DNA of 36,545 bases. Origin: a virus. The notes beneath the pieces were generated by a model. That model made no database searches and was not told the origin of the DNA. It saw nothing but the letters and a program-made list of their open reading frames with translations. The first letter of the stretch is position 1. Each line of letters starts with the position of its first letter. Positions 19,798 through 30,043 of this stretch are shown piece after piece. The translations under genes were made by a program, and so were the position numbers. The stretch lies in the IMG/VR virus record IMGVR_UViG_3300044490_000052, positions 1-36,545 of that record; one strand, given 5' to 3'.

Positions 19798-21006
19798 CTA
19801 CACGAGAGTAACTTGTGACTCAGGCGTGAAAACGCAGTTTTCATAGTCAACTGTCGTTTCAACCGTCAGTGCATGTGGTCTTATTGGCGACGGATTTCTG
19901 ATCTTAGCGGCATGTACCCTGGCGATGGGAGGAAAGTTTTCTCTCTCCTGCTCGGTTTGGTTAATTGATGTAAGCAGGTCAGCAACCTGTGGAATCGCCC
20001 AGCATTCTGCCACATCCTGCATACCCAATACGTAACCACCACTACCTGCAGCAGGCACGCTTCTCATTTCGCGGACCGGCGCTCTTTGCGGTTGAGTAGC
20101 TGTCCACACGGGACACCTGTACTTGTTGCCCAGCGCTCTTATCTTTAGTACGTTCTCTGATATGGCGTCGTACTTGCTACCTGACCTGTTCGTGTTTGGT
20201 GTGGCTAAGTGTATTAGGTGGTCAACAATGATACAGGCTGCTTTGGCTTTGCTGTTCAGCAGGTCAGTTTCAATCACCGAGTCGATAAAGTCAACGCCGA
20301 TCGAACCTGCAGAGGCGTGAATGATGTTGACCTTCTCGTTGTTGTAGTCCCAACCAGCAAGATACTTGGCTATGATTGACCGTACGCTCATTTCCAGAGT
20401 GAAGTGATAAACCACACCCAGCGCTGGCTTTTGCGCCAATGCACGTCCTATCTGGACGAGCGCCGTGGTCTTACCCACGCTAGGTGGTGCCAAGATGACG
20501 CCAAGTTCGCCACTACCCACAGTTGCCCACGAGTCAAACACCGTACCGGTCCTGTACGTGTAGTCGTACTTGTTGGGTGGTAACGACGCGATGGTGTCCT
20601 TAGAAAGGCTAACACGCTCTACCGTGGCTGCTGCCTTCTTCACATCCAGCATTGAAGATGCGCGGGTTAGGTTGTTCACCACCTGGGCCAACTCTGATGG
20701 ATCACCGTCAACCAATGCTTTGTGTGCGGTTGACACGACCTTTGAGGCGGCAACCATCAAGACTTGTGCCTTGAGTGATGCTATGTAGCCCGTGATCGCG
20801 GCGGTGTCCTCAACTTTCCTTTCCCCTTTACAGGTAAGCGAGTTGAGTAGTGGCTTTAGCCTTTCATCACCAACGACGGGTAAGGCTACCTCGTAAAACT
20901 CGTAAACGCTAGAAGCCAACGCAGGGTCAACTACCGCGTTTCCTACCGTGTTGGCCAGTTCTGACACAGAGGTGAGTATGCGTGCGAAACGCTGCTTGAT
21001 ATTCAT
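19798..21006 (-). CDS. DnaB-like replicative helicase
   Basis: A 402-aa RecA-fold helicase, shorter than DnaB (about 470). The first 130 residues are helical and poorly conserved. Walker A is APPSVGKTT (173-181), a FTLEMS motif (202-207) corresponds to DnaB SLEM, Walker B is AACIIVDHL (256-264), and the sensor motif ATQPQR (303-308) corresponds to DnaB SQLNR. It unwinds DNA ahead of the fork, probably with the separate DnaG-like primase at 31683. Last gene of the reverse operon, starting in an ATGA overlap with the kinase-MazG gene. Confidence 0.8.
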   Translation of the reverse strand: MNIKQRFARILTSVSELANTVGNAVVDPALASSVYEFYEVALPVVGDERLKPLLNSLTCKGERKVEDTAAITGYIASLKAQVLMVAASKVVSTAHKALVDGDPSELAQVVNNLTRASSMLDVKKAAATVERVSLSKDTIASLPPNKYDYTYRTGTVFDSWATVGSGELGVILAPPSVGKTTALVQIGRALAQKPALGVVYHFTLEMSVRSIIAKYLAGWDYNNEKVNIIHASAGSIGVDFIDSVIETDLLNSKAKAACIIVDHLIHLATPNTNRSGSKYDAISENVLKIRALGNKYRCPVWTATQPQRAPVREMRSVPAAGSGGYVLGMQDVAECWAIPQVADLLTSINQTEQERENFPPIARVHAAKIRNPSPIRPHALTVETTVDYENCVFTPESQVTLV

Positions 21007-21830
21007 GTGTTTGACACATGCGGCTTGTTACCAGTTTCCAGCCTGTGGTTATTGACGGTGAACTTCTGCGCGGCAAGGTCTGCTATAGCACGCGCACTCA
21101 TTCCCCTGCTTTTCATGAGAGTGAACAGGAAGAACATTACGTCAATCAACTCTTCATTAGCTGCTAGTATCTGTACTGGTTGGTGGCGAAGCTTCTCCTG
21201 GAACTCTTCCAGTTCTTCGATGCACCTTTCAGCGATGTGCGACTCATCTATGGGTTTGTACCCAGCCTTCCTGCGGAAGAAGGCGTTGCTTAGTGTAAGC
21301 AACCCGTCAAGCGTTGCGTGTCCACTATCGGGCACGGATACGCGGGTGGCACACTGTGAAGTGTCAATGACGGTGTGCATTACGCCGTCAAGGATCGAAG
21401 CGAAGTAGCTTTCATGGCTGTAATCATCACCTTCGTTTCTGATCTTGGTTATGTCAAGGTCATACCTTGCGCCGTCATGCATGTCTCTTGCTCGTACCCT
21501 ACTGACCCTGATGTTAGTAGGGCACACTGTCCGCACAACGCTTACCGCCACGCCGTTACGGAGCAATTCGCCAATCCAACCTACCTGTGCAAGGTTCCTG
21601 GGGAACGCTTCTGCTACTACGTGTCCGTAAGTTTCGACAGACGAAAACAACAGATCCTTCACCATTCCGTCAAGACGGTGAGGAGCCACAACGTTCTCGT
21701 CTGTGCCAACCTTCGTCAGCTTCCTTACGAAGTCACCACTGTGAACAGGAGCAAACAACCCTGACAGCGAGTTAGCCAGCGTTGATTTCCCGCTACCCGT
21801 CGAACCCGTTATGAGGATGCACGTCTTCAT
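21003..21830 (-). CDS. nucleotide kinase-MazG (MazZ-like) fusion
   Basis: A 275-aa two-domain protein. Residues 1-about 180 are a P-loop nucleotide kinase: GSTGSGKST (9-17), HSGDFVRKL, and a LID-like Arg/Asp-rich stretch (RVSRVRARDMHDGARYDLDITK). Residues about 195-265 are MazG-like: EELEEFQEKL (205-214) and NEELIDVMFF (225-234), giving the EExxE ... ExxD metal-binding pattern of NTP pyrophosphohydrolases. In 2-aminoadenine phages MazZ turns dGTP into dGMP, the substrate of PurZ. The kinase domain could phosphorylate dZMP or another dNMP. It is adjacent to PurZ (10 bases). The fusion is unusual. Substrates are inferred; I did not see a known name for this combination. Confidence 0.8.
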   Translation of the reverse strand: MKTCILITGSTGSGKSTLANSLSGLFAPVHSGDFVRKLTKVGTDENVVAPHRLDGMVKDLLFSSVETYGHVVAEAFPRNLAQVGWIGELLRNGVAVSVVRTVCPTNIRVSRVRARDMHDGARYDLDITKIRNEGDDYSHESYFASILDGVMHTVIDTSQCATRVSVPDSGHATLDGLLTLSNAFFRRKAGYKPIDESHIAERCIEELEEFQEKLRHQPVQILAANEELIDVMFFLFTLMKSRGMSARAIADLAAQKFTVNNHRLETGNKPHVSNT

Positions 21831-21840
21831 GATACGGTCA

Positions 21841-22884
21841 CTACCTACGGATCACTTCGTTATTCTTGGCACCGGTTCCAATGAGGGCCACGCGTGTCTG
21901 TGACGTGTTCTCGACGAACTCCACAAAGGACTTGCTCTGCGCGGACAGTGCACTGTAGTGCGACTTACCGGCGTCCGCAGCGTTCACGTACTGCATGAAG
22001 TTCAAGAACAGCCAGTCGGGCTGGTTGGCGGCAACAAACTGTGCAACCTGCATGGGCGAGAATGTAAACACACGACGGACACGCTTAGTTACTGTGGTGT
22101 GCTCCAGGATCGGTGTTGCGCTTCCGCTATCGGTAGTGATAGCCTGCCACGACAACTCCGCTTGGTCAGGCCAGCAAGGCCCACTCCAGCCACCGTCAAC
22201 GTTGCCTACACGGATTGGGTACGTGCGGATGCACCCTATGACTTGGGAAACCTGCTTGTGCGGAATACCCATGCTGTTGATGGCTGCACCAACAGTGATG
22301 TCTCTGGATGTAAGATACGGGTAATCGAACCCGTGGTTGATCGACAGGTCGAAACCCTGTGACATCTCGAACAGCACAGTTGCGCCCTTGTTTACGTAAG
22401 TGCGTACCGCCTCACACGTGTCCATGATGAATCTTGACGGCAACAGATTCATGGCAAGCTTGGTGTCTTTGAGGCGTAGAATCTTTCTGGCTATCGCGTG
22501 TCCGGTCCCTTGCATCGTGCCTGCCACGTGCCTGCCCGTGAGCGAAGCTGCAGCGGCGTCATCGGGTGTGACCACCGCAACTCTTGGGTGGACAAACACG
22601 CGATTTTCACCTACCAGCGCTGCTTCTTTCAGAAACGTGTCAATGTTGATCACGCTGTCGGGCATGATCAGTACCATCGCGTTCCTGGCCGTGATCGAGG
22701 ACGAGGGCAACGCTTTCAGCACCGTGGCGTTGCCGTCGTTGTCAACGTAGGTGTGCCCTGCGTTTGGACCAAACGAGGAGCACACGATGTCTGGGTTGTC
22801 CTCACCCAGCATACCGCACAGCTTGCCCTTACCCGTCGAACCCCACTGACCATCCAGCACTATGTTGACGCCATGCTTAAGCAT
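21841..22884 (-). CDS. purZ: PurZ, 2-aminoadenylosuccinate synthetase
   Basis: A 347-aa adenylosuccinate synthetase homologue, shorter than bacterial PurA (about 430). The phosphate-binding loop is GQWGSTGKGK (12-21), where PurA has GQWGDEGKGK; the catalytic Asp is replaced by Ser16, as in PurZ of 2-aminoadenine phages. The catalytic His is kept (GPNAGHT, His44). Other PurA motifs remain: MQGTGHAIARK, ITVGAA, CIRTYPIRVGN, and the base-binding IGTGAKNNE near the C-terminus. PurZ joins dGMP and Asp to form dSMP; host PurB then yields dZMP. GGGG lies 6 bases before its ATG. PurZ versus the related PurZ0 subgroup cannot be decided by eye. Confidence 0.9.
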   Translation of the reverse strand: MLKHGVNIVLDGQWGSTGKGKLCGMLGEDNPDIVCSSFGPNAGHTYVDNDGNATVLKALPSSSITARNAMVLIMPDSVINIDTFLKEAALVGENRVFVHPRVAVVTPDDAAAASLTGRHVAGTMQGTGHAIARKILRLKDTKLAMNLLPSRFIMDTCEAVRTYVNKGATVLFEMSQGFDLSINHGFDYPYLTSRDITVGAAINSMGIPHKQVSQVIGCIRTYPIRVGNVDGGWSGPCWPDQAELSWQAITTDSGSATPILEHTTVTKRVRRVFTFSPMQVAQFVAANQPDWLFLNFMQYVNAADAGKSHYSALSAQSKSFVEFVENTSQTRVALIGTGAKNNEVIRR

Positions 22885-22887
22885 AAC

Positions 22888-23325
22888 TTACCCCTTTCCT
22901 TTCGTCTTTCGCGCTTTCCCGATGTAGGCAGCACTGTACGTGTCGAACACGCGTACGTTGCGCCTGTACACTTCAATCATCTTCTTTACGTGACGTGCTG
23001 CGAAGTCTTCAACGCGGATTCCCGTGTTCGATACGTACTGTATGCACCGGTCGTCCCACAACTCAACACAACCGATGTCTTTCTTGCAGGTAACCTTGAG
23101 TTTACCCAGGCCGTGTCGTTTCAACCACCGCTTTACCGGCGGTATCTGGTGGCTTATGCAGGCACGAGCCGTAAAAATGCGCACTTCAACGCCAACAGCA
23201 ATCAGTGCCTTTACACGGATTAGCACGCTGGGTATGACCTGCCCGATATGGTTGTGGCCACGCCATCCGTCGTAGTGTGCGAGAACGCCATCAAGGTCAA
23301 CACCAACCCAGCCTTCTTTCTTCAT
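22888..23325 (-). CDS. HAD-superfamily hydrolase
   Basis: A 145-aa HAD fold protein. Motif I is GVDLDGVLAHY with nucleophile Asp10 and Asp12, motif II is RIFTARA (about 49-55), and the metal-binding motif is ELWDDRC (about 88-94). Such small HAD proteins remove phosphate from nucleotides or small metabolites. It lies 3 bases upstream of purZ in the operon and overlaps the preceding gene as ATGA, so a role in nucleotide-pool shaping, for example removing dAMP, is attractive. That substrate is a guess. Cys- and Lys-rich C-terminal tail. Confidence 0.7.
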   Translation of the reverse strand: MKKEGWVGVDLDGVLAHYDGWRGHNHIGQVIPSVLIRVKALIAVGVEVRIFTARACISHQIPPVKRWLKRHGLGKLKVTCKKDIGCVELWDDRCIQYVSNTGIRVEDFAARHVKKMIEVYRRNVRVFDTYSAAYIGKARKTKGKG

Positions 23326-23645
23326 ACGCCTAGGCTCCTTACTCTATAAACGGTTGAACGGGCAAGGCTGTTTCGCGTAACTAGGTAACGACAGTTGGCC
23401 ACAGCACCTGCTCTGGTGAGTTCGTTGTACAGGTTATCGTCAATGTTCAGCACGTAAAGCGTACTAACGTACTCCACAATCGCGAACGCCACACCATGCT
23501 GAACCGTTACGGTGTTGCCCCTGTACGGTATCAACCTAAGCACTTGCTCTGCTCCAAGAGACAACAGCGGAAAGTCAACCACCTGCATGTCGTCAACAGG
23601 ACCAGTAACGTTAAGAGAGCGTAAGTCGTTCGTGTTCTTTACCAT
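23322..23645 (-). CDS. unknown small protein in the polymerase-purZ operon
   Basis: A 107-aa protein, not recognised. I chose the ATG at 23645 (GGAAGGA upstream); a longer reading reaches 23681. It overlaps the polymerase 3' end by 35 bases and the HAD start as ATGA, so it is translationally coupled. Predicted beta/alpha (VLRLIPYRGNTVTVQHGVAFAIVEYVSTLYVLNI). No Cys pairs or catalytic motif. Might be an accessory factor of the polymerase or the nucleotide pathway, but this rests only on position. Confidence 0.6.
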   Translation of the reverse strand: MVKNTNDLRSLNVTGPVDDMQVVDFPLLSLGAEQVLRLIPYRGNTVTVQHGVAFAIVEYVSTLYVLNIDDNLYNELTRAGAVANCRYLVTRNSLARSTVYRVRSLGV

Positions 23646-25800
23646 AGTACCACGTCCTTCCGTGTTTACCGTCCATGACAAGTTTGATAGGGTTGTAGAT
23701 TTCGGGTATCAAACTGTGGGGCAGGCAGATGCAGTGGACACGCGCCAACCGCACAACCTCGTCGAATTCGCTATGCAGCACGTCGAACACAAGAGCGTCG
23801 TGTATTTGGTTTATCACCCGTGACTGCATGTTAGCCGTGTTCAGTGCTTCAACCATCGCAACCATGGCAATTAGCGTGGTGAATCTTCCAGGGTTAGAAA
23901 TCAAGTAGTCGGTTGCTTGCCGTTCTGCCTTGGCACGTACTGCCTTATCGTCACTGGTGAAATAGGGCAGGTGTCTCACACGGCCTGTCGGACTTATGAC
24001 GTACGAATGCCTGCGAGCGAAGGCATGCTGATTTTCCTGCGTCTTCTTGATTTCTGGGTTGGCTTCAAAGAAACGACCTAGTATGGTTTCAGCGTTACGA
24101 ACCGGAATACCGGCCAGTTCTGCTAACCCCTTGGCCGTGATTTCGGTGATGACGCTAAAATTGATACGCTTGCCCAACTGCCTTGCGTTAGCACAAACTT
24201 TATCGTTCCTTGTGAGTCTGTCCAAGAACTCCTCTTCCGGTATACCCAGCACGGCCTGGGCACCCGTCCTTGCATGCAGGTCTTTTCCACTGAGAAACGC
24301 GTCAATGAAACCCTTGCACTTCGACACGTTGCCCATGATCCTTAGGTGTAGCTGCGAATAATCAAGTTCGAGAATCGAGCCACTGGAGCCAAAGCGAGAT
24401 ACCACCATTCTGCGTATCGGGTCTTTGGGTATGTTCAACACCGGTGGATCATACGAAGTCAGTTGACCTGTCAACAAATCGGTACAGCTAAAGTTCGTCC
24501 TGAGCACGCCACCCTGCCCCATTGCGTCTGACGCATAATTAAGTATGCCAGACAGGAAAGACAGCTTGCTAGACACTTCCATCATTTCTACCGCCACCGG
24601 CTCTTTCCTGCCTTCAAGCACGGTTTTTGAGGACGAGTCAACGTTGATGCCGGAAAGCTTCAGCAGCTTTATCTTCTGCTTCGGCTTCTTTATGTCAAAC
24701 TGCGTCATGCCCAGCGCCTTTGCCCTACCCCTCAAGCTTGTTTCAAGCTGGCTCACCCTGGCGATGTACTCTGACCGGATCTTCATCACCGTTTCTATAT
24801 CAAGCTTTATTCCGCTCAGTTCCATGTAGGAGAGCGCCAGTTGTGCGCGGCTCATGATTTCGAGGGATAGGGTCAGGTTGGATGCTGGCTCGTTCTTGAA
24901 CAGGTTGGTAAGTCTACTATAGACTTTGGCAGTAACAAACGCGTCAAGCGCGTTGTACCTTGCGAGCAAGTGCGGTGGTGCGTCTGCATGTCTGCGTTCC
25001 AGTAACACGCTGCCCTTTGACGGGTGAAGCGGATGAAGAAAGTCGGTCATCATCAAGTCGTAACCAGCCATACCGACTGTGGCAGACAGGAACTCAAGCC
25101 CTTTGTGTCCTTCTTCGTTGATGTGAGCAGACATAACTTGTACGTCTGCTTTCACCACCAGCGGCATCTTGTGCTTGACGATGGCCCATTTCTGCTCGAA
25201 CTTGGCATTACATAGGATGACAGGAACGCCACGCGCTATCACCTGCCCGAATACGTGTTGTGCCTTGGTGCTGTTGGTGGTTACGTAGGAAACGTTACTT
25301 GCCAAGTCGTACAATGCAATTGACGCGACTCGTCCCGCGTGCGGGTCAAGGTCCGTGGTTTCAATGTCAAGGGATAGTGGACCGGCGCTGTTAATCAGTT
25401 GCTCTGCAGTTGCGTCGTCGTATGCGCTGGGTGGCAGTACAAAATCATCAAACGGGCAACGGTCTGAAACGAAGATGTTACGAACAGCCTGTGCACACCA
25501 CGCCGTTGACTCTATTGACATTACCGTTGCTGGTTGCCCGATAGACGGAACGGAGAAGACGTAAAGGTCATCACACAACTTGTGTATCCGCATAGACGGA
25601 ACATCGGTTTCGCCCGTGTGGACGATGTTACAGCACCGAGGTTGAGTGGATGGCCCTACACTGAACTTGGGTATAAAGGCACGAAATACATCAAGTTCTT
25701 GCTTGCTCCACTCACCCACGATATGCACGGGTGTTGGCCGTGCATACGTGGGTAGCTGCAGCTTGGTCTCTCCAACATCGAATAGTGAAAGCTGACTCAT
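23611..25800 (-). CDS. family A DNA polymerase with 3'-5' exonuclease (DpoZ-like)
   Basis: A 729-aa PolA-family polymerase. Residues 1-130 are an unassigned N-terminus. The exonuclease has Exo I SLDIETTD (143-150), Exo II CNAKFE, and Exo III YNALDAF. The polymerase has motif A LDYSQLHLRI (about 479-488), motif B RQLGKRINF (about 540-548) and motif C QIHDALVFD (665-673). Motif C carries HDA where most PolA enzymes have HDE. No 5'-3' exonuclease domain. In phages such as phiVC8 a PolA-type polymerase (DpoZ) linked to purZ prefers dZTP over dATP; this gene is a candidate of that kind. Starts in a TAATG overlap with the Sak4-like gene. Confidence 0.85.
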   Translation of the reverse strand: MSQLSLFDVGETKLQLPTYARPTPVHIVGEWSKQELDVFRAFIPKFSVGPSTQPRCCNIVHTGETDVPSMRIHKLCDDLYVFSVPSIGQPATVMSIESTAWCAQAVRNIFVSDRCPFDDFVLPPSAYDDATAEQLINSAGPLSLDIETTDLDPHAGRVASIALYDLASNVSYVTTNSTKAQHVFGQVIARGVPVILCNAKFEQKWAIVKHKMPLVVKADVQVMSAHINEEGHKGLEFLSATVGMAGYDLMMTDFLHPLHPSKGSVLLERRHADAPPHLLARYNALDAFVTAKVYSRLTNLFKNEPASNLTLSLEIMSRAQLALSYMELSGIKLDIETVMKIRSEYIARVSQLETSLRGRAKALGMTQFDIKKPKQKIKLLKLSGINVDSSSKTVLEGRKEPVAVEMMEVSSKLSFLSGILNYASDAMGQGGVLRTNFSCTDLLTGQLTSYDPPVLNIPKDPIRRMVVSRFGSSGSILELDYSQLHLRIMGNVSKCKGFIDAFLSGKDLHARTGAQAVLGIPEEEFLDRLTRNDKVCANARQLGKRINFSVITEITAKGLAELAGIPVRNAETILGRFFEANPEIKKTQENQHAFARRHSYVISPTGRVRHLPYFTSDDKAVRAKAERQATDYLISNPGRFTTLIAMVAMVEALNTANMQSRVINQIHDALVFDVLHSEFDEVVRLARVHCICLPHSLIPEIYNPIKLVMDGKHGRTWYYGKEHERLTLS

Positions 25801-26555
25801 TACACCGTGGGCTGCTTCGCGTTCTTCTTCTTCTGCGTGGTCCCGTCACTGGTGTTTGTGTCAGGGTCAGCGCACTTGGTGGACGCGATAAGCTTCGCCA
25901 GATCGGGCGCTGCCCAGGTGCCTTTGCCCCACCTGTTTTTAGCAACAACCTGGTCTGTGCCATCCAGCCTTATGAAGCGTTCACCTTCGTGGCCCTCTTT
26001 CCGGCTAACTTCCACGTGACCCACAATGTCGAACATACCACAGACTTCCGGTGTCAGCTTCTTCGACATCATCGGGTAAAGCCTTGTTCGCGTGGTGCCT
26101 TCACTCGCTTCCAGTTCGACGGGCATTTCCAGCGCTGTGACCACGATGTTGATGCCGTGTTCGCGCAAGTCACGCAGACGGCGAATGTAGTCACGCATCT
26201 TGAAGGTGGCCACCCCGTAGTCGTTCAAGGTAGGCGTACCGGTTGACGACTTCCTACCAAGACAGACCAGCATGAACTTTTCAAGTTCAGTGGCCGAATC
26301 AAGGCATATGTTGTCGTAAGCAGGCTTTGATGCCGTGAGTTCGTCGAACAACTCACGCAGACCGGTGAGGTCTTCGGGAATAGTAGCGATGTCCACGTCC
26401 TTATCACGCAGCACCACCGTTCCACCCTCAATATCGATAACCAACGTCTTGCCGCCTAACGTACCAAGGCACGACGTTTTGCCTGCGCCACTTTCCCCAT
26501 ACAGCAGGATCGTGGCACCAGTGGCGTCAGAACTCCGCGCATTCCGTACCTTCAT
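25800..26555 (-). CDS. Sak4-like RecA-fold ATPase (single-strand annealing / recombination)
   Basis: A 251-aa ATPase with Walker A YGESGAGKTS (19-28), TLVIDIEGGTVVL, DNICLDSATEL (Walker B) and VVTALEMP. This matches the AAA_24/Sak4 group found beside phage SSB and exonuclease genes, where it promotes homologous annealing. C-terminal Lys/Asn tail. It overlaps the nuclease gene by 29 bases and the polymerase gene by one, so all are in one operon. Alternative: a DNA-repair RecA paralogue. Confidence 0.7.
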   Translation of the reverse strand: MKVRNARSSDATGATILLYGESGAGKTSCLGTLGGKTLVIDIEGGTVVLRDKDVDIATIPEDLTGLRELFDELTASKPAYDNICLDSATELEKFMLVCLGRKSSTGTPTLNDYGVATFKMRDYIRRLRDLREHGINIVVTALEMPVELEASEGTTRTRLYPMMSKKLTPEVCGMFDIVGHVEVSRKEGHEGERFIRLDGTDQVVAKNRWGKGTWAAPDLAKLIASTKCADPDTNTSDGTTQKKKNAKQPTV

Positions 26556-27540
26556 CTGTCACTACTCCTTTCGTGTTACCTTCACCCTTACCCTGTGTAA
26601 AGCACATCTCTCGCACTTCCGGACAGTCATCCACGCAGATTGAGGCGTAGGGGCACGAACGGTATCTGCACGCTGCGGGATTACGGTAGAAGCTACCGCA
26701 CTTGACCGCTTTGGCCATGTCAGTGCTAACCTGTTTCATCAGTTCGACAAACTGCTTGCCACGCTCCACGGAACGAGTAACCATCACTGACCTGATGGCG
26801 TCTGGATGTGCAACGTACCACTCAGCAAGTCGGTTTGTGTATTCTTCGATCGTTTCGTCCTTGTCGCGGCATGAGGCGTACAGTGCTCCAGACTTCGTGT
26901 ACTTGCGGTCTGCTTCCGGTGTAGCCAGGGCCAGCTTGATAGCTGGCATCTGAATGAAGACATAAAGCACGATGCGTGCGTATGTCCCACGGTTACGCTC
27001 TGCTACCTGCGAATGAAGGTAGAAGTCAGGCTGGTAATCAAGGCCCAACTGAGCCTCTTGTATCGGTGCAAGCATCTGCACTCGCTTGTACTCTACCACG
27101 ACCGGAACCGGCGTGGCTTCTGCCCCAATCAGCACCGAACCGATGCCGTCCACGTAGCCTGTCAGCGTTACCTTGCCCCTACGGGTAAGCGGTTCCTCTA
27201 TCCTGACTTCCGTTTCGCGAACGTTGATTGCCGTGTACAAGCTGCTTGCGAAATACTGCCAAAGTGCAGACTTGCAGCGAGCCAGCATCAGCGCAGTATC
27301 GTTGGACTCGGTTGCTTCCGCTTCCTGCTTCATGACTTCGAACGCCGCTTGGATGTTCTTGGTCTTGGCCAACGCCGCAAGACCGATGTGCAACAGCGTT
27401 CCTTCCCTGAGCGGAGCCGGTCCGGTCTCCTTGGGCACCAAGTCTTCGATGTAACGAAGAAAGAACTTGCGCCTACACTCAATGAAGGTGGAAACCTTCG
27501 AGTACGAAAGCTGCAGGTGCACTTTGTCAGAAGGGCACAT
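26527..27540 (-). CDS. Cas4/RecB-type PD-(D/E)XK nuclease with Fe-S cluster
   Basis: A 337-aa exonuclease-like protein. The N-terminus LSYSKVSTFIECRRKFFLRYIE has the typical LSxSxxxxFxxCxxxFxxxY signature with Cys22. The nuclease core shows D131 (GYVDGIG) and E150-x-K152 (VVVEYKR). The C-terminal Cys cluster (CRYRSCPYASICVDDC) supplies the other ligands of a 4Fe-4S cluster, as in Cas4 and AddB. Probably processes DNA ends for recombination with Sak4 and SSB. Overlaps the SSB gene by 14 bases. Confidence 0.75.
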   Translation of the reverse strand: MCPSDKVHLQLSYSKVSTFIECRRKFFLRYIEDLVPKETGPAPLREGTLLHIGLAALAKTKNIQAAFEVMKQEAEATESNDTALMLARCKSALWQYFASSLYTAINVRETEVRIEEPLTRRGKVTLTGYVDGIGSVLIGAEATPVPVVVEYKRVQMLAPIQEAQLGLDYQPDFYLHSQVAERNRGTYARIVLYVFIQMPAIKLALATPEADRKYTKSGALYASCRDKDETIEEYTNRLAEWYVAHPDAIRSVMVTRSVERGKQFVELMKQVSTDMAKAVKCGSFYRNPAACRYRSCPYASICVDDCPEVREMCFTQGKGEGNTKGVVTDEGTECAEF

Positions 27541-28078
27541 CTTCGTTCTCCTGCGTCGCAGCGGTTTGGCTCGCTTCCGTTGCCGCTACCGGCCTTCGAG
27601 TCTGTGCCTGTGCCTGCGGTGTGATGTCGGGCACCTTATCAATCGCGGGGTCATACCGCAGAAAGTAGTGAATGATGGCGCGTGTCTTACCATCACGCGT
27701 TTCGTGCTTGATTCTGGCACGAAAGCGCTTGTTGTGAAGCATGCTGACACTGAGTTTGACACGTTTCGTGGTGTCAATGCCGATACCATCCAACAGCCTG
27801 CCAAGAAACGAGGCTTGGTACTGACCCTCTGGCACCGTGTAGAACAGGTAGTAACCGCGTCCCTGGGTGGAAAGCACTTCTGCCTTGACGTTCAAGTAGC
27901 GGTTGCCCGTGTTGCTGGATGTGCGGAACTCCGTATCCTTCTGTCTGATGATCGCAACCACTTCTGCCCCTGCAGGTGGAATGTCGAACGCCACAGGTGC
28001 CTTTTCGTCTTTGGGCCGGTCTGCGGGGTTGAACTCAAGATCGAATGTTTCCTGTGTAGCGCCTTGCTTCTTGTTCAT
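27527..28078 (-). CDS. DUF669-like single-stranded DNA-binding protein
   Basis: A 183-aa protein, first of the reverse operon. It resembles DUF669 phage SSBs: a short N-terminal segment, PPAGAEVVAIIRQKD, an OB-like beta region (RYLNVKAEVLSTQGRGYYLFYTV), then QASFLGRLLDGIG. The low-complexity Gln/Ala/Thr tail ends in ENEDVPF, similar to the acidic C-terminal tip of SSB proteins (DDDIPF) used for partner recruitment. An AGGAG plus AGAAGG region lies before its ATG. It would coat ssDNA at the fork. Confidence 0.7.
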   Translation of the reverse strand: MNKKQGATQETFDLEFNPADRPKDEKAPVAFDIPPAGAEVVAIIRQKDTEFRTSSNTGNRYLNVKAEVLSTQGRGYYLFYTVPEGQYQASFLGRLLDGIGIDTTKRVKLSVSMLHNKRFRARIKHETRDGKTRAIIHYFLRYDPAIDKVPDITPQAQAQTRRPVAATEASQTAATQENEDVPF

Positions 28079-29340: not shown

Positions 29341-29419
29341 AGACGGGGACTACTCACCCATGAGCGCACATAACAACAGACCCCGACTGGCGCTCTGTGA
29401 GGTTGAGAAGGAGAAGGTC

Positions 29420-30043
29420 ATGAGTCGTAACATTACGCGTAACGCTTCGGGTCATGCAGTGAAAGAACGACTTCGAGTGCTGGTAGCTTGTGAGTTCAGC
29501 GGAACCGTGCGCGATGCCTTTCGGGCATTGGGCCATGACGCCATGAGTTGCGATCTGCTGCCGACCGAGACGCCCGGACCGCACTATCAGGGAGACGTGC
29601 GCGACGTTCTGACGCCGGGACGATGGGACTTGGTGATCGCACACCCGCCATGCACACACTTAGCGGTCAGCGGTGCGCGTTGGTTCAAGGACAAGGCGAG
29701 GGAGCAGGCCGAGGCTTTGGACTTTGTGCGCCTGCTGCTGGCTGCGCCCGTGCCGCATATCGCGCTGGAAAATCCGGTTAGCGTGATTTCCAGCCGTGTG
29801 AGGAAGCCTGACCAAGTGATACAGCCTTGGATGTTCGGGCATGGCGAGACAAAGGCTACCTGCTTATGGTTGGTGAACCTACCGCCGTTGCGAGCGTCGA
29901 ATGTGGTTGATGGTCGTGAAGCGCGGGTATGGAAGATGGGGCCGAGTCCGAACAGATGGCGGGAACGGTCACGGACGTTTTCGGGCATCGCTGCCGCGAT
30001 GGCCGACCAGTGGGGCGCGTTCTGTAGTACGAAGGAGGATTGA
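29420..30043 (+). CDS. cytosine C5-methylase-like protein
   Basis: A 207-aa Rossmann-like protein. N-terminal VLVACEFSGTVRDAFRALGHDAMSCDLLP resembles the SAM-binding motif I region. HPPCTHL (75-81) corresponds to motif IV with its PPC catalytic Cys, and LENPVS (116-121) to motif VI. It lacks a clear target-recognition domain and is shorter than typical DNA C5 methylases, so activity is unsure. I prefer the ATG at 29420 with AGGAG upstream; another in-frame ATG is at 29360. Such genes are frequent in phages of varied hosts and may protect DNA from restriction. Confidence 0.6.
   Translation: MSRNITRNASGHAVKERLRVLVACEFSGTVRDAFRALGHDAMSCDLLPTETPGPHYQGDVRDVLTPGRWDLVIAHPPCTHLAVSGARWFKDKAREQAEALDFVRLLLAAPVPHIALENPVSVISSRVRKPDQVIQPWMFGHGETKATCLWLVNLPPLRASNVVDGREARVWKMGPSPNRWRERSRTFSGIAAAMADQWGAFCSTKED

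Follow-up and report, generated by a model that had tools for sequence, protein, structure and literature searches.

A kinase–pyrophosphohydrolase fusion encoded beside purZ in a phage contig suggests a variant pathway to 2-aminoadenine DNA

The window, as the whole stretch of DNA analysed here is called, is a 36,545-base IMG/VR virus contig whose left end carries terminase, portal, protease and head genes; it is the genome of a phage (a virus of bacteria) in which purZ is directly followed by a gene that joins an adenylate-kinase-family domain to an all-alpha NTP pyrophosphohydrolase domain. It is fairly probable that this phage follows a variant of the pathway to 2-aminoadenine (Z) in which it supplies its own dZMP kinase; from the genes we infer both the substrate of this kinase and the presence of Z in the virion. 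The genome likely contains Z, as the preliminary description of this DNA had proposed, and the kinase domain next to PurZ, which that description missed, is the more novel part of the system. The arrangement suggests a route to Z that is less host-dependent than those studied so far. No close relatives were found by DNA or by single protein in phage records or IMG/VR, and only alignment-based searches worked. The features discussed below are as follows:

19798..21006, minus strand: DnaB-like helicase, the next gene after the kinase fusion
21003-21830, minus strand: kinase / all-alpha NTP-PPase fusion (P0002), 275 aa
21033..21311, minus strand: all-alpha NTP pyrophosphohydrolase domain, C-terminal in the fusion, with E206, E209, E227 and D230
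21351..21830, minus strand: adenylate-kinase-family domain, N-terminal in the 275-aa fusion, with GSTGSGKST, G32, R36 and FPR-x3-Q82; proposed dZMP kinase
21841..22884, minus strand: predicted PurZ (N6-succino-2-amino-dAMP synthase), 347 aa, with Ser16 in GQWGSTGKG, His44 and an NF-x-Q nucleotide pocket
22888..23325, minus strand: HAD-type phosphatase by motif, 145 aa, DLDGVL ... FTAR ... ELWDDR
23322..23681, minus strand: small ORF of 119 aa when counted from its TTG start, flanked by PolA and the HAD gene
23611..25800, minus strand: PolA, family-A DNA polymerase with 3'-5' exonuclease, not DpoZ-1/2
25800..26555, minus strand: Sak4-like recombinase, same operon as purZ
26527..27540, minus strand: PD-(D/E)XK exonuclease, same operon as purZ
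27527..28078, minus strand: 183-aa protein, phrog_2300, which opens the operon

The operon runs on the minus strand from 28078 down to 19798, and its neighbouring genes overlap or are separated by no more than 10 bp (-71 to +10 bp). Its order is the 183-aa protein, PD-(D/E)XK exonuclease, Sak4, PolA, small ORF, HAD-type protein, PurZ, kinase/NTP-PPase fusion and DnaB-like helicase, with the helicase following the kinase fusion as it does in relatives. The PurA homologue that had been reported at 21841-22884, with Ser for Asp and with His44, is an intact ORF. It had also been placed in one operon with PolA and a MazG protein; the tight replication operon is indeed present, but the supposed MazG protein is the C-terminal half of a two-domain fusion. 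The 145-aa HAD-type protein has no Pfam match, and ORFs related to it occur in five kinase-clade loci in all. At 29360-30043 the window also encodes a protein (phrog_757) that is methyltransferase-like, bears a His-Pro-Pro-Cys motif and by eye appears more of the cytosine-C5 type than an adenine methyltransferase; it was considered as a sign of adenine chemistry and set aside on account of the Pro-Cys motif and the absence of a solved relative.

Identification of the window protein as PurZ is strongly supported by its place in the tree, its active-site Ser and its ATP-type pocket. The protein matches Pfam PF00709 and PHROG 1211, '2-aminooxy adenylosuccinate synthetase' (9e-61), and its best solved relatives are the PurZ proteins of S-2L (7odx, E=4e-52) and phiVC8 (6fko, 4e-43). 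The best NCBIfam match is the PurZ model NF038379 at 204.6 bits, under a naming cut-off of 300 that three kinase-linked relatives also miss, and the archaeal-type PurA profile NF003295 gives 181.7 bits. Ser16 lies in GQWGSTGKG and His44 in NAGHTYVD, and Ser occupies the position of PurA's Asp in every viral PurZ relative compared. At N305, F306 and Q308, which bind the energy nucleotide in S-2L PurZ (PMC8342488), the window has the same residues (S-2L numbering); the PurA counterparts are T/K/D and those of Wayne PurZ0 are T/M/D.

A careful maximum-likelihood PurA/PurZ tree of 68 rows, of the kind that the preliminary description had suggested as a check, places the window with proven PurZ and not inside cellular PurA. 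The window shares a viral clade of 49 rows (support 100/96) with S-2L, phiVC8 and SH-Ab 15497; archaeal PurA (GD[ET]GKG) is outside this clade with full support, and Wayne PurZ0 is outside it on a long branch. The window PurZ itself has a long branch, and the identity of its closest sister is uncertain: support is 93/77 in the careful tree, and a quick tree joins it to the kinase group (support 82). As for membership of PurZ0, the window has neither the GTP-type pocket nor a grouping with Wayne, the latter being a long branch. PurZ activity has been published for S-2L, phiVC8 and SH-Ab 15497 (PMC12884076, PMC8342488); since these proteins share the window's clade, the window is bracketed by dSMP-forming enzymes.

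The kinase domain belongs by its profile and predicted fold with the adenylate kinases. Its family profile best matches adenylate kinases (Aquifex 2rgx, E 4e-17), and in an AlphaFold model of the fusion (pLDDT 84, pTM 0.56) residues 1-169 resemble adenylate and UMP/CMP kinases with Z up to 13.5, in a structure comparison whose alignments are almost confined to the kinase domain; identity to solved structures is about 16-20%. The phage family alignment shows G14-K15 in the P-loop, G32, R36, P77-R78, Q82, R111 and R115 to be invariant or nearly so. The window shares with the adenylate kinase / UMP-CMP kinase family the modelled fold, the P-loop, G32/R36, R78 and Q82 of the FPR-x3-Q motif and the two downstream arginines. 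In adenylate kinases a Gln recognises 6-aminopurines, where UMP/CMP kinases have Asn, and this base-recognition Gln is kept in all aligned members of the phage family. Unlike the adenylate kinase family, the window kinase is fused to a pyrophosphohydrolase, is encoded beside purZ and has EAFPR at the DGFPR motif (Glu-Ala for Asp-Gly), most relatives having D-G-x-P-R.

The C-terminal domain carries the acidic residues of the dimeric dUTPase / MazG all-alpha NTP-PPase superfamily (EExxE ... ExxD-type), with E206, E209, E227 and D230 kept across the fusions. Its profile matches dimeric dUTPases (E 1e-11), and PF08761 is found in relatives. The domain was initially taken for MazZ, an idea that the profile test does not clearly support: although the superfamily residues are present, the hhalign match to MazZ-1/MazZ-2 is weak (probability 29.5%, E 6e-4). 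The MazG partner named by the preliminary description is an all-alpha NTP-PPase domain that is fused to a kinase and stands nearer to dimeric dUTPases (PF08761) than to the MazZ proteins known so far.

Linkage of the kinase to purZ extends across many viruses. Scanning IMG/VR with a PurZ alignment yielded 455 relatives, and in the best 80 of these, which were fetched, the kinase family lies directly downstream of purZ in 35 loci, with a spacing of -13 to +293 bp; the window also has it, as does the cultured Bacillus phage vB_BpsS-140. In the reverse search, starting from the kinase, purZ was immediately upstream in 14/14 contigs, one of them new, and of 50,697 phage records, tblastn with the vB_BpsS-140 kinase matched just 14 others, mostly unannotated or bacterial-like. 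When the 45 whole PurZ records with no adjacent kinase were searched, among them nine cultured canonical PurZ phages and Wayne, the family was found elsewhere only in vB_BpsS-140 and a sister virus, and in none of the nine cultured canonical phages. Near the window's part of the tree the kinase is missing from L029, L030 and L032, two of which are short contigs. In many loci a pyrophosphohydrolase is joined to the kinase or comes after it, as PF08761-type fusions or trimeric dUTPase PF00692; many of the standalone kinases precede PF00692, the family of DutZ, and the kinase slot of L032 holds a dUTPase and an ORF that, labelled by eye from its sequence, is DUF5664-like.

Two proteins of these relatives have parts that resemble other enzymes. 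One locus (L035, 7137-8690) encodes a triple fusion in which kinase and dUTPase_2-type NTP-PPase precede a C-terminal part bearing YLAGPI ... SAGAHAEI, which at the level of motifs is like nucleoside deoxyribosyltransferases such as DmtZ; this third domain has no Pfam or PDB match, and its single-sequence model is poor (pLDDT 43). In another (L012, 2401-4692), the N-terminal segment of PolA resembles uracil-DNA glycosylase (RCQKCDLSTTCKS ... FIGQAPG), and other PolA proteins of the clade are of similar length.

DatZ was found in 0/29 kinase-bearing records compared to 14/16 canonical ones (Fisher p=7e-10, ignoring relatedness and with some records being fragments), and as both kinase presence and DatZ absence follow the phylogeny, few independent events are involved. 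In the window itself, a profile able to pick up the DatZ of S-2L and phiVC8 gave no match, no PurB or NDT genes were found, and the deoxyribosyltransferase family PF05014 had no match. Larger relatives of 126-136 kb do encode PurB: the contigs of L055 and L058 match TIGR00928 above its curated cut-off, and in PurZ-kinase viruses of this size purB (L180, 1441-2895; L181, 1396-2799) adjoins a T4 gp47-like nuclease. The contig of L053 has a Lyase_1 match. According to a published study, enzymes leading from dSMP to dZTP had not been found on phage genomes (PMC8342488), and no paper on a phage dZMP kinase was found in the full-text literature, a scope outside which most subscription papers fall.

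PolA had been counted among the expected partners of Z, and it is not DpoZ. Against the two NCBIfam DpoZ models it scores 30.6 and 25.8 bits (cut-offs 500 and 350), and it has Thr at the O-helix Tyr position, where Phe is common to both DpoZ clades (PMC8599892). The expectation about partners holds in part: a pyrophosphohydrolase domain does lie beside purZ, PolA is outside the DpoZ families, no DatZ was found, and the MazG-like domain is fused to a kinase. In E. coli numbering, with the Pol I reference sequence checked at 14 known residues, the window PolA differs from E. coli Pol I by R668Q, E710H, Y766T and E883A. Its kinase-clade relatives keep Arg668, Glu710 and Tyr766 where the region is covered, and have Ser, once Lys and once Asp at Glu883. 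Tyr766 is changed in 7/7 PolA proteins compared from cultured PurZ/PurZ0 phages, to Phe in DpoZ and to Ser in Ochrobactrum phage OH. As R668 and Y766 lie near the nascent base pair in Pol I, the window PolA may possibly be adapted to the extra minor-groove amino group of Z.

In comparison with the Z-cluster phages S-2L, phiVC8 and SH-Ab 15497 (PMC8342488), the window shares a Ser PurZ with an ATP-type pocket and a pyrophosphohydrolase directly after purZ, but it differs in the absence of DatZ, in a pyrophosphohydrolase that is dimeric-dUTPase-like and kinase-fused, and in a PolA that is not DpoZ-2. The PurZ0 phages (Arthrobacter phage Wayne, Gordonia phage Ghobes; PMC12884076) have dUTPase-type enzymes beside purZ, as do many window relatives, and no reported DatZ; the window differs from them by NFxQ in place of T-x-x-D, by the lack of a PF05014 match and by a PolA without the DpoZ-1 Phe.

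The cultured relative with purZ, kinase and dUTPase is Bacillus phage vB_BpsS-140 (DSM 29700; MH884512; L004, L182, L183; PMC6375668), whose record annotates PurZ, adenylate kinase and dUTPase. As in the window, its PurZ is of the Ser type (GSEGKG) and its 'adenylate kinase' is of the same family; unlike the window, the kinase lies 9 kb from purZ, the PurZ is outside the window's clade, and a PolIII-type polymerase is reported. The phage also carries thyX. According to its isolation paper, DraI cut every genome of that study except vB_BpsS-140 (PMC6483233), whose genome has 21 DraI sites, and this refractoriness is an indirect sign of Z-DNA. EcoRI, with 24 sites, reportedly cut all the phages including vB_BpsS-140 (PMC6483233), which argues against complete substitution by Z there unless EcoRI tolerates Z. 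The available passages of the phage's two papers (PMC6483233, PMC6375668) do not mention 2-aminoadenine.

The proposed pathway would begin with the C-terminal pyrophosphohydrolase domain cutting dGTP, and possibly also dATP, to the monophosphate, as its superfamily and the dUTPase or DUF5664-like genes in the same place in relatives suggest. PurZ would then combine dGMP, Asp and ATP into dSMP, a step to which phylogenetic bracketing by proven enzymes and the intact pocket point strongly. Host adenylosuccinate lyase would convert dSMP to dZMP, as is known for phiVC8; two large relatives have a PurB of their own. The N-terminal kinase domain would phosphorylate dZMP to dZDP, a step that appears to be left to the host in characterised Z phages, and host NDK would yield dZTP. 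The non-DpoZ PolA would finally copy the DNA, with mainly the nucleotide pool favouring Z.

Other readings of the same genes give the kinase or PurZ a different role. It is unlikely that in a Z phage the kinase is a general one for dTMP, dCMP or dAMP, feeding ordinary dNTP synthesis while host enzymes phosphorylate dZMP. Host enzymes do suffice for phiVC8 (PMC8342488), vB_BpsS-140 has thyX, and with a C-terminal domain closest to dimeric dUTPases, and dUTPases after many standalone kinases, the pair could serve dTTP. However, the kinase is linked to purZ and has no tie to a thymidylate gene, and it keeps the Gln of adenylate kinases rather than the Asn of UMP/CMP kinases. The dUTPases near purZ in PurZ0 phages (DutZ) also cut dATP and dGTP (PMC12884076). 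Very improbable is a PurA-like enzyme feeding ordinary adenine nucleotides to phage replication: the superfamily is the same and the NF003295 score is close to that of the PurZ model, but the catalytic Asp is replaced by Ser, the pocket is NFxQ, and the window is nested with proven PurZ while archaeal PurA falls outside with full support.

Where PurZ is active, Z might still replace part of the adenine and not all of it. This we regard as rather unlikely, though the absence of a detected DatZ and a PolA outside the DpoZ families speak for it, as do the failure of Klenow Pol I to discriminate between A and Z (PMC8342488) and the reported EcoRI cutting of vB_BpsS-140 (PMC6483233). On the other side, the pyrophosphohydrolase domain may lower dATP, as SH-Ab DUF550/DUF5664 and DutZ do (PMC12884076), and PolA carries substitutions near the nascent pair (R668Q, E710H, Y766T), Tyr766 also being changed in every cultured PurZ/PurZ0-phage PolA compared.

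If the favoured pathway with a phage-supplied dZMP kinase is correct, the kinase linked to purZ, with purB in some members, would render the pathway partly to largely phage-encoded and offer a candidate gene set for making Z-DNA in other cells. A broader reading, to which we give slightly less than an even chance, is that an uncultivated PurZ radiation encodes more of the route to dZTP (the kinase, and purB in the large members with the gp47-like nuclease), with DatZ and DpoZ-2 being later additions in the S-2L/phiVC8 lineage. The known ATP-type Z phages would then branch from this large, mostly uncultivated radiation, hinting at the order in which the Z machinery was assembled.

PurZ-like genes also occur in cells. 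A bacterial fusion of an adenylate-kinase-like and a PurZ-like part with Ser (GGQWGSEGKG) is found at L126, 7449-9050, and others in L122-L125, L128, L130, L135, L144 and L154. These proteins, of 532-546 aa with the kinase N-terminal, occur in Rhizobiales, Gemmatimonadota, Acidobacteriota and Actinomycetota. A DUF7002 gene follows the fusion in both scanned loci (L126, L135), and a similarly placed ORF is seen in L124, L125 and L144; the fusion loci gave no clear PADLOC match. They are possibly a cellular system with related chemistry. PurZ-like proteins with Ser (GSEGKG where read) are encoded by MAGs of Nanoarchaeota/Aenigmatarchaeota and by genomes of Prevotella and Lachnospiraceae (L114-L117, L118, L119, L121), and those of Clostridia MAGs (L127, L139) have GSCGKG and form a very long branch of the tree.
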